64,000 nt of DNA from Deltaproteobacteria bacterium (lineage in GTDB: Bacteria; Myxococcota; Myxococcia; Myxococcales; Anaeromyxobacteraceae). The position numbers and the translations under genes are program-made. How positions within the stretch are numbered: position 1 is the first letter of the stretch; each line of letters opens with the position of its first letter. The DNA is taken from contig JACRMN010000017.1 in NCBI GenBank assembly GCA_016214955.1, positions 124,001-188,000 on the forward strand, read 5' to 3'. The notes beneath the pieces are model-generated. The model did not search any database and was not told where the DNA came from. It saw only the letters and a list, made by a program, of their open reading frames with translations. Of the stretch, positions 29,799 through 47,686 are shown one piece after another.

Positions 29799-32603
<2,805 letters not shown>

Positions 32604-45408: not shown

Positions 45409-46395
45409 TTGGCGGAGGGCACGCGAGGCATCCCGGTGGTGCTGGTGGGGCTCGGTCCGACCGGCCTCGCCATCGCACGCGCGGTACTCGAGACCCCCGA
45501 CCTCCGCATCGTCGGAGCGGTCGATCCCGCGCACCAGGGTCGCACCCTCGCCGAGGTGCTCGGGGGACCGGCACCCTCGGTCACGATCGCCGCGGATCCT
45601 GCCCGCATCCTGGGCAGCGCCAGGGGCGGCGTGCTGCTCCACGCCGTCGGCGGCGACCTCGACGACGCCGAGCCGCTCCTCACCCAGGCGGTGCGCGCCG
45701 GGTTGACGGTGGTCTCCACCTGCGAGGAGCTCTGCTACCCGTGGCTCGCCCACGAGAAGCTGGCCGAGCGGCTCGACAAGCTGGCCGAGTCGCGCGACGT
45801 GGCGGTGCTCGCCACCGGCGTCACCCCCGGCTTCGCCCTCGACAGGCTGCCCGGCTTCCTCTCGCAGGTGACCGGGCCGGTACGCCACCTCCGCGCGGTG
45901 CGGGTGGTGGACGCCGCTGCCGCCTCGCCGGGCCAGGCCGGGGCGCTGGGCATCGGCCTCGAGGCCGCCGCCTTCGACGAGGCCTCCGACCGCGGCGACC
46001 TGGGCCAGCCGGGCATGGCGCAGTCGGCGGCGCTGGCGGCGCTGGGCTGCGGCTTCGAGCTCGACGAGGTGGAGGAGTCGCTCGAGCCGGTGCTGGCCGA
46101 GGCGGCGCGGCCCGGTCCGCCGGCGGTGGCCCGCGGCGCGGTGGCCGGCGTGCGCCACTCGGTGCGCGGTTTCGTGGACGGCGCCGAGCGGGTGCAGCTC
46201 ACCCTGCGGGTCGAGGTGGGCGCGGCCGACCCGCACGACGAGGTGGAGCTGGACGCGCGCCCGCCGCTCTCGCTGCGCATCCCCGGGGGCGTCCCCGGGC
46301 TCGAGGCCACGGCCTGGGCGGTGGTCAACGCCGCCGCCCCCGCCACCTTGCTGCGCGGCCTGGTGACGGTGCTGGACCTGCCCGCGGGCAGGTGA
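45409..46395 (+). CDS. NAD(P)-binding dehydrogenase-like protein (dihydrodipicolinate reductase-type fold)
   Basis: The 328-residue protein has a Rossmann start, IPVVLVGLGPTGLAIARAVLE, followed by LRIVGAVDPAHQGRTLAEV, STCEELCYPWLAH and GVTPGFALDRLPGFL. This resembles the DapB-like dehydrogenase group that includes 2,4-diaminopentanoate dehydrogenases. The TTG start is set by the GGAGG just before it, though the spacing is short. It leads a run with two MaoC-type genes. The substrate is unknown; a role in an amino-acid or acyl catabolic path is a guess. Confidence 0.75.
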   Translation: MAEGTRGIPVVLVGLGPTGLAIARAVLETPDLRIVGAVDPAHQGRTLAEVLGGPAPSVTIAADPARILGSARGGVLLHAVGGDLDDAEPLLTQAVRAGLTVVSTCEELCYPWLAHEKLAERLDKLAESRDVAVLATGVTPGFALDRLPGFLSQVTGPVRHLRAVRVVDAAAASPGQAGALGIGLEAAAFDEASDRGDLGQPGMAQSAALAALGCGFELDEVEESLEPVLAEAARPGPPAVARGAVAGVRHSVRGFVDGAERVQLTLRVEVGAADPHDEVELDARPPLSLRIPGGVPGLEATAWAVVNAAAPATLLRGLVTVLDLPAGR

Positions 46396-46406
46396 AAGGG
46401 GAACCG

Positions 46407-46844
46407 ATGCTGGATCGATCGCTCGTGGGACGGGAAGGCGAGGCATGGACGGTGGAGGTGGAGCGGGGAATGATCCGCCGCTTCGCCGAGGCCGTCGGCG
46501 ACCCCAACCCGCTCTGGAACGACGAGGCCTCGGCCCGCGCCGCCGGCCACGCCGGCCTGGTGGCGCCGCCCACCTTCGCCGCTGCGCTGGCGCTCGACGA
46601 GCGCTTCCGCCAGTCGCTCGACCTGGGCACCCGCCTCATCCTGCACAGCGAGCAGCAGATCGAGTACGGCCGGCCGGTGGTGGCCGGCGACCGGCTCACC
46701 ATCCGCTCCAAGGTCGCGGACGTCCAGGAGAGGGCCGGGGCCAGCGGCCCCATGGACGTGCTCCTCATCGAGGACGAGGCCCGCGATCCGCAGGGCAACG
46801 TCGTGTTCCGGTCGCGCTCGACGCTGGTGCTCCGGCGCGGCTAG
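46407..46844 (+). CDS. MaoC-like hot-dog dehydratase (FAS1-type)
   Basis: The 145-residue protein has a single hot-dog domain: MIRRFAEAVGDPNPLWNDEASA and GLVAPPTFAAALAL, with IEYGRPVVAGDRLTIRSKV later. It matches the N-terminal type of MaoC (FAS1-like dehydratase) that pairs with a second MaoC subunit. The gene follows the dehydrogenase by 11 bases and precedes a second MaoC by 8 bases, so a heterodimeric enoyl-CoA or acyl-ACP hydratase is likely. The substrate is unknown. Confidence 0.88.
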   Translation: MLDRSLVGREGEAWTVEVERGMIRRFAEAVGDPNPLWNDEASARAAGHAGLVAPPTFAAALALDERFRQSLDLGTRLILHSEQQIEYGRPVVAGDRLTIRSKVADVQERAGASGPMDVLLIEDEARDPQGNVVFRSRSTLVLRRG

Positions 46845-46852
46845 GGGGTCCG

Positions 46853-47686
46853 ATGGCGCTTCTCGCACGGCAGCTCTACTTCGAGGCGGTCAAGGTGGGG
46901 GACGAGCTCCCCCCGCTGGTGAAGCCGCCGGTCGATCGGGTGCAGATCGCCCGCTACGCCGGGGCGGCCGGCGACCTGAACCCGCTCTACGTCGACGAGC
47001 AGTTCGCCAGGAACGCCGGCTTCCCCTCGGCCCTGGCGCCGGGGATGCTGGCGATGGGCTTCCTGGGCGAGCTGGCCGCCGACTGGCTGCGCGGCGCGCG
47101 GGTGCGCCGCTTCGGCGCCCGGTTCGTCAAGATCGTCTGGCCGGGCGACGTGCTCACCGCGCGCGGCCGGGTGACCGAGCGGCGCTTCGAGCCCAGCGGC
47201 GCCTACACCGTGGACATCGAGCTCTGGGCCGAGAACCAGCGCGGCGAGCTGGTGACCCGCGGCCTGTGCACCGCCCAGCTCTACTACAGCCCCGAGGACG
47301 AGGCCCGGCAGCGCGCCGGCCAGCCTCCGCTGCTGGTGACCGCCGCCGAGGAGGAGGCGCGGCTCGCCAAGCTCTCGCGCGCCCAGCCCGCGCGCCGCCC
47401 CGAGCCCATGCCCCAGCGCACCGGCCTGCCGCCGCCGGCCCGGCCGCCCTTCCCGCCGCCGCTGCCGCCGCGCCCCGGCACGCCGCCGCCTCCTCCGCGG
47501 CCGGGGCCCGCCGCGGCTCCGGCCCGGCCTGCCGCCGAGAAGCCCAGGGCGGCGAAGCCCGCGCCCAGGCCTGCGCCCAAGAAGGTGGCCCGGAAGCCGG
47601 CGAAGAGGCCCGCCGCAAAGGCGCCGAAGAAGAAGCCGGCGGCCAGGAAGCCCGCCAGGAAGCCGGCCGGGAAGAAGAAGCGGTAG
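46853..47686 (+). CDS. MaoC-like hot-dog dehydratase with histone-H1-like tail
   Basis: Residues 1-150 are the second MaoC hot-dog domain, with the catalytic-type segment ARYAGAAGDLNPLYVDEQFA (Asp and the later His position held by PGMLAMGF in this half). From about 170 the protein becomes Pro-rich (PPPARPPFPPPLPPRPGTPP) and ends in a Lys/Ala/Pro tail (KKVARKPAKRPAAKAPKKK) of about 55 residues resembling histone H1 or eukaryotic-like DNA-binding tails. Such tails are not part of the enzyme family. The tail could bind DNA, RNA or polyphosphate, or be a compositional drift. It is in frame and unbroken. Confidence 0.85.
   Translation: MALLARQLYFEAVKVGDELPPLVKPPVDRVQIARYAGAAGDLNPLYVDEQFARNAGFPSALAPGMLAMGFLGELAADWLRGARVRRFGARFVKIVWPGDVLTARGRVTERRFEPSGAYTVDIELWAENQRGELVTRGLCTAQLYYSPEDEARQRAGQPPLLVTAAEEEARLAKLSRAQPARRPEPMPQRTGLPPPARPPFPPPLPPRPGTPPPPPRPGPAAAPARPAAEKPRAAKPAPRPAPKKVARKPAKRPAAKAPKKKPAARKPARKPAGKKKR

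Follow-up and report, generated by a model that had tools for sequence, protein, structure and literature searches.

Why should a hot-dog protein of the lipid-metabolism type end in a long polycationic tail? The question was raised by a gene at positions 46853–47686 (plus strand) of the window, a stretch of 64,000 nucleotides from a member of the Anaeromyxobacteraceae (Myxococcota; assembly GCA_016214955.1, contig JACRMN010000017.1), which encodes a HadB/MaoC-like protein of 277 amino acids. A sequence-only reading had proposed that the hot-dog domain is followed here by a Pro-rich and then Lys/Ala/Pro-rich tail resembling that of H1. This was borne out by a tail of 121 residues with a net charge of +27, and positions 47400–47686 were found to be the 3' part of a reading frame with a likely ATG start at 46853.

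Residues 1–150 (46853–47302, plus strand) form the hot-dog domain. Both PF01575 and PF13452 scored above cut-off, and the PF01575 score of 66.3 bits (cut-off 27) placed the protein in the MaoC-like hot-dog family, while the best PDB sequence matches were the HadB subunits 4rlj_B and 5zy8_B (E 7e-15). The AlphaFold model had mean pLDDT values of 86–96 per ten-residue block over residues 11–160, and Foldseek matched the predicted structure with a probability of 1.00 to HadB (4rlj_B) as well as to the R-hydratase 1iq6_A, indicating a predicted hot-dog fold; matches to PhaJ (1iq6 and 5cpg) were also obtained.

The tail (residues 157–277) was composed of 37 Pro, 26 Ala, 16 Lys and 16 Arg, among others, with the last 60 amino acids of the protein at net +22 and the preceding residues 1–156 at net +1. 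It opened at residues 157–176 (47321–47380, plus strand) with an EEEARLAKLSR segment common to the Anaeromyxobacteraceae orthologs and a predicted helix at 164–176, continued as a Pro-rich linker at residues 177–216 (47381–47500, plus strand; 20 Pro in 40 residues, 13 of them within residues 197–216) and ended in a Lys/Ala/Pro-rich, H1-like stretch at residues 230–277 (47540–47683, plus strand), where residues 237–277 held 19 Lys/Arg and no Asp/Glu. No secondary structure was predicted from the helix to the C-terminus, and block pLDDT fell to 61–80 at residues 181–230 and 53–69 from residue 231 to the end. The tail thus has the properties of an H1-like tail, being a strongly positive, Lys/Ala/Pro-rich and predicted disordered stretch of more than 100 residues; tandem KPAA repeats were absent from it, the sequence being irregular by eye.

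The adjacent HadA-like partner that is expected of a HadB was present immediately upstream. Its gene (46407–46844, plus strand) belonged to the FAS1_DH region family (PF13452, 117.4 bits; NF040624 HadA 83.4 bits, below the cut-off of 180), carried no cationic tail and was followed by the ATG of the HadB-like gene 8 bases past its stop codon. For comparison we assembled 79 Myxococcota loci, comprising 54 best-match loci (from which the weak matches L104–L107 and the second matches L108 and L109 were left out), 5 of the 30 loci from a search of 146 genomes and 20 hand-chosen loci, and a HadA-like gene lay upstream of HadB in 77 of them. A reductase gene related to 2,4-diaminopentanoate dehydrogenase (Ord/DapB-like; 45409–46395, plus strand; PF19328 60.3 bits, NF040740 161.9 bits against a cut-off of 400) is probably part of the same operon, and the Ord-HadA-HadB triad was kept in 19 of 20 neighbourhoods from the order. 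Among the 20 other hand-chosen loci, with flanks of about 3 kb or less, Ord was found only at L178 and L179, both in family f4 of the same order; a conserved operon therefore does not explain the tail and was dropped as a clue to its function.

As a rule, the HadB-like protein was the one of the three products with a cationic end. Mean net charge over the last 40 residues was +8.4 for HadB (63 complete rows), +0.2 for HadA (79 rows) and -0.8 for the reductase (57 rows, maximum +1). Six HadA rows reached +6 and a single one +21, although for the latter (L176) the search seems to have picked up HadB itself. In three other MaoC proteins of the genome, the last 40 residues of the coding frame had net charges of -1, +4 and -2.

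Whether the protein is still a hydratase is doubtful from its sequence. The GDLNPIH motif of HadB reads GDLNPLY in the window protein (D41-L-N-P-L-Y46; 46973–46990, plus strand), in which Asp41 is kept and the His is replaced by Tyr46. The Asp/His dyad (DxNPxH), which we take to be catalytic following the hydratase-2 and HadB literature, is thus incomplete, and the score against the HadB equivalog PRK13693 was 56.4 bits, below its cut-off of 203. The His was kept in 53 of the 79 rows and replaced in 26, and of the 23 Anaeromyxobacteraceae (L006–L028) 6 kept it and 17 had another residue there (10 Tyr, 3 Cys, 3 Ser, 1 Phe); hydratase activity becomes doubtful with this loss in the window protein and in most members of its family. 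The HadA-like partner has Trp at the corresponding position, and the 54 aligned HadA-like rows, including this copy, had 38 Tyr, 9 His, 3 Ala, 1 Ser, 1 Trp and 2 gaps. No coupling of the tail to catalytic state was found, as tails occurred in family members with and without the His. A FabZ match in the genome means that fatty-acid synthesis need not depend on the HadA/HadB-like pair, and a role for the pair as sole fatty-acid dehydratase was ruled out on this basis.

The tail on the HadB-like protein is real and not a product of chance. We called 649 genes with a simple codon-usage caller, as for the other genome samples below, on three contigs of the window genome (756 kb of 5.30 Mb, 14% of the genome), and among the 635 genes of at least 100 amino acids the HadB-like C-terminal 50-mer had the highest net charge (+21; mean 1.2, SD 3.4). 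A net charge of +12 in the last 50 residues was reached by 8 of the 635 genes, compared to 0.5 on average after within-protein shuffling, and the N-terminal equivalent was reached by one gene of this sample. Lys made up 2.5% of the sampled proteome, and across the 12 readable Anaeromyxobacteraceae orthologs it accounted for 2.7% of the domain against 11.3% of the tails, a bias in a direction that drift in GC-rich DNA would not be expected to take, since such drift should raise Arg, Pro, Ala and Gly codons at the expense of those for Lys. A similarity search of the tail against its own genome returned a good E-value only for the tail itself, with three others at E 0.45–0.86; this poor yield is probably due to composition-corrected scoring, and composition counts on sampled contigs were used instead.

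For comparison between genomes a stricter measure was applied (net +12 and 8 Lys in 50 residues), which retained 4 of the 635 C-termini in the window genome sample. On contig C12 of that genome (228 genes) the C-termini were those of pyruvate phosphate dikinase (PpdK) and HadB, with one N-terminus belonging to a phosphoribosyltransferase whose start is possibly miscalled. The sample from an f7 genome (G029, 284 genes) gave one C-terminus, TruD, and one N-terminus, HadB, and that from an f29 genome (G096, 297 genes) gave the C-termini of TopA, HadB and YceD and no N-terminus. Such cationic ends, found on about 1% of the sampled genes, are rare among genes yet recur on the HadB-like gene. The other carriers in the f29 and f7 samples (TopA, YceD, TruD) were all related to nucleic acids, and those in the window genome were mostly metabolic (PpdK, APS kinase, TrpB and SucD, plus a TPR protein).

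These counts also bear on a wider suggestion of the sequence-only reading, that adding polycationic tails to enzymes is a general habit of this organism. The suggestion was upheld in so far as several enzymes do carry them. PpdK (29799–32603, plus strand; TIGR01828 1290 bits) has a basic C-terminal tail at about 32487–32600, and such a tail of variable sequence, net +7 to +23, was present in all 18 complete family members (L262–L282; 3 more run off their contigs), with APS kinase, TrpB and SucD as further cases. As a general habit it was found to be limited, with 8 of the 635 genes reaching +12. Besides HadB and PpdK, the genes with cationic C-termini in the window genome were located at L042:1892-3175 (TrpB), L068:16460-17497 (SucD, succinyl-CoA ligase alpha), L052:17518-18189 (APS kinase) and L054:16787-18019 (TPR protein).

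Within the Anaeromyxobacteraceae the tail was present in all 12 of the 23 loci in which it could be read, the remainder being cut by a contig end within the tail (10) or masked (1). The 12 tails were Pro-rich and then Lys/Ala/Pro-rich, extended 102–209 residues past the domain and had net charges of +12 to +22 in the last 50 residues. Mean identity was 78% in the domain and 55% in the tail, and dN/dS in six pairs was 0.03–0.15 and 0.30–0.60, respectively, which indicates that some of the tail sequence can drift freely. A strain-specific, neutrally evolving tail, the outcome that would have spoken against the sequence-only proposal, is refuted by the occurrence of the tail beyond the window strain and by dN/dS values below 1. 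A frame or annotation artefact was also ruled out, since domain and tail share one reading frame both in the window protein and in those orthologs that were read, and since dN/dS is below 1. Contigs ended inside the tail coding region at L007, L008, L010, L011, L012, L015, L019, L020, L022 and L028, and draft annotations may consequently lose the tail.

The comparison among Myxococcota called for by the same reading revealed that the extension occurs in many families of the phylum. The domain alignment, searched against 146 Myxococcota genomes, found matches in 125, of which a part was read, and of the 79 rows 63 were complete, unmasked and distinct; L009, L160 and L168, all with masked bases, were omitted from tail counts. 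An N- or C-terminal extension of net +10 or more was found in 36 of the 63, and 57 of the 63 ended in Lys or Arg. C-terminal tails of net +10 or more, 43–209 residues long, occurred in families f1, f3, f19, f22, f24, f25, f27, f29 and f31, as well as in two f4 genera and in a single f23 row out of the three that were complete. Distant orthologs had regular KKPAA or AKKKV arrays, and repeat units differed between lineages, with AKKKV in L168 (f30, partly masked), KKPAAKKKPAA in L176 and PAPAKPAPAK in L162 (f29, running off its contig), indicating that lysine richness rather than sequence is kept.

In one lineage the basic stretch lies at the opposite end of the protein. A Lys/Ala/Pro-rich stretch of 67–121 residues preceded the domain in f7 (11 rows, 1 of them cut at the C-terminus) and f5 (1 row), and these 12 rows (L085–L089, L091–L093, L096, L097, L099 and L100) formed a single clade with support of 100/98, in a tree on which L009 is labelled 'C' and L160 'short' though both are masked. 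The start codon of the N-extension overlapped the end of the HadA-like gene by 4–8 bases, 11 of the 12 began with MSSR, MSSK or MTSR, and dN/dS of the N-extension in three f7 pairs was 0.07–0.42. The spread of the extension through the phylum, and its position at the other end in one lineage, suggests from comparative sequence that the extension matters.

The extension is not a universal rule in the phylum. Charges below +10 were found in all 15 core f4 (Myxococcaceae) rows, in f6, f9, f20 and f28 and in two of three f23 rows. The core Myxococcaceae had mixed-charge tails with the last 25 residues at net +4 to +8 (13 of 15 at +6 or more). Four rows (L101; L102 and L103; L177) from three lineages, among f4-g20, f3-g15 and f26, were essentially without an extension. 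The locus L232:2930-3113, from a Deltaproteobacteria MAG, encodes an acidic C-extension (net -4) with a hydrophobic, membrane-span-like stretch, and the contig ends within this extension.

Outside the phylum the basic C-tail was absent from all 21 homologs examined. Named genomes yielded 80 loci, of which 51 were read (43 + 8) and 21 were extra-phylum, from Rokubacteria, Chloroflexi, archaea, Burkholderiales/Betaproteobacteria (three titled as Bordetella parapertussis MAGs), Frankiales and Shinella. These homologs, judged by their C-termini alone, ended at most 26 residues past the matched region with net charges of -1 to +3; at 20–41% identity, and with several that are fused double-domain proteins to judge from their size, they may not all be orthologs in the strict sense. 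Upstream of the domain in L241, where the start codon is uncertain, the longest in-frame stretch was Arg-rich at net +10.

The kind of tail is not new, as DNA and granule proteins of bacteria are known to bear H1-like tails; the carrier, a HadB-like subunit of lipid-metabolism type, is unexpected. No report of a cationic tail on a MaoC/HadB protein was found in the openly licensed literature that was searched, and we know of no nucleic-acid function of HadB-like proteins. The protein resembles HadB of the mycobacterial HadAB (3R)-hydroxyacyl-ACP dehydratase (4rlj, 5zy8) in its hot-dog fold, with 34% identity in the structural alignment, and in the pairing of its gene with a HadA-like FAS1_DH gene. 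It differs in having Tyr for the catalytic His and in that both members of the pair score under the NCBIfam HadA and HadB cut-offs; moreover, the matched mycobacterial HadB chains are 141–147 residues long, leaving no room for a tail, and 5zy8 is titled as a C-terminally truncated HadBC.

The tail itself is closer to those of AlgP and PhaF of Pseudomonas, with which it shares predicted disorder, Lys/Ala/Pro richness and C-terminal position. In PMC9239181, AlgP is described as having a disordered Lys/Ala/Pro-rich C-terminal domain of 154–195 residues, of which a 154-residue KPAA version associates with polyphosphate granules and spaces them, and PhaF as a PHA-granule protein with an H1-like tail. 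Both have helical N-terminal parts and KPAA tandem repeats, whereas the window protein has a hot-dog folded part and irregular repeats. HupB/HupS and actinobacterial topoisomerase I likewise show a lysine-rich tail added to a folded bacterial protein, and such lysine-repeat tails are reported to raise topoisomerase processivity or to compact DNA (PMC3784963), although their folded parts, unlike the HadB-like hot-dog part, already act on DNA.

We assign a probability of about 0.5 to a HadAB-like complex whose disordered polycation tethers it to a polyanion, nucleic acid being the likeliest. The HadB-like subunit would join its HadA-like partner in a HadAB-type hot-dog heterodimer, as the adjacent gene suggests, and the extension would act as a flexible electrostatic tether holding the complex on DNA of the nucleoid or on RNA, much as has been proposed for AlgP, PhaF, HupB and TopA with their H1-like tails. 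The hot-dog part presumably still binds acyl thioesters, and in the Anaeromyxobacteraceae, where most members are without the hydratase His, the complex might have weak activity or serve for binding without catalysis. An electrostatic tether fits the retention of polycationic charge while sequence, length and position change. Nucleic acid is the first-choice partner on account of the tail composition and the company of TopA, YceD and TruD; it is not indicated by the window genome, where metabolic enzymes make up most of the other tailed proteins. The mixed-charge tails of the core Myxococcaceae, the rows with essentially no extension, the acidic extension of L232 and the higher dN/dS of the tail than of the domain also speak against the tether. 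More broadly, the extension might anchor the enzyme on DNA, on RNA or on some other acidic partner, and the localisation to nucleoid, RNA or polyphosphate that had been suggested from the sequence is a plausible hypothesis.

Two other acidic partners are serious rivals to nucleic acid. The tail could dock the dehydratase on acyl carrier protein (ACP) or anionic membrane lipid and so raise the local substrate concentration, which we regard as unlikely but the stronger of the alternatives. HadAB-type enzymes, as in the mycobacterial system, act on acyl-ACP, the tail is confined to the HadB-like subunit of the pair, a short basic end persists where long tails do not (the 57 of 63 rows ending in Lys or Arg), and L232 has its membrane-span-like C-extension where other relatives have the basic tail; however, a Lys/Ala/Pro composition over 100–200 residues is characteristic of proteins that bind nucleic acid or polyphosphate, such as AlgP, and the dehydration His is lost in 26 of 79 rows, many of them still tailed. 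Alternatively, the tail may bind polyphosphate or hold the complex at polyphosphate granules, as is the case for AlgP of Pseudomonas with its KPAA domain (PMC9239181), and the window genome has a polyphosphate kinase gene (PF02503). We consider this rather improbable, as the folded part is unrelated to AlgP, a regular KPAA array is missing from the window protein and the operon shows no link to polyphosphate in the present data.

Neutral low-complexity sequence generated by slippage in GC-rich DNA would account for the wide variation in tail length and sequence and for the break of 10 of 23 family contigs in the tail. Myxobacteria are reported to account for four of the five bacteria with the strongest enrichment in low-complexity regions (PMC6821194), and such enrichment would supply raw material for the tail, but not the lysine bias or the switch of terminus. 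Against a neutral origin, to which we give a low probability, are the four-fold enrichment of Lys over the domain in a Lys-poor genome, the dN/dS of the tail below 1, the same property at the opposite terminus in one clade, the lack of such ends on the neighbouring HadA and Ord, and a background of about 1% of genes. FapR provides a model for lipid-precursor sensing on DNA, and by the same logic the Anaeromyxobacteraceae pair might be a former dehydratase that has become an acyl-thioester-binding nucleoid module, sensing lipid precursors with its tail on DNA, which is a very doubtful proposition. MaoC/PhaJ hydratases supply PHA monomers, and the structural matches to PhaJ (1iq6, 5cpg) and the H1-like tail of PhaF could point to a PHA-precursor hydratase that, like PhaF or PhaM, is tethered both to the nucleoid and to PHA granules. 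This is exceedingly improbable given the missing catalytic His, and was rejected as the main reading with no PhaC_N match in the window genome (95.6% completeness).

Lysine richness on a lipid-metabolism-type enzyme subunit has been kept across many families while the sequence, the length and even the end of the protein have changed. If the tail is a tether, these lineages amount to a natural experiment on the electrostatic positioning of enzymes in bacteria, and the nucleic-acid reading raises the question why a dehydratase would sit on nucleic acid. The tractable M. xanthus offers for comparison an ortholog (L233) of the core Myxococcaceae kind, a short mixed-charge version. A typical Myxococcaceae HadB was also found on a 519 kb contig (L228) of a record titled Comamonas sp. 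KCTC 72670, which is probably a mislabelled genome.
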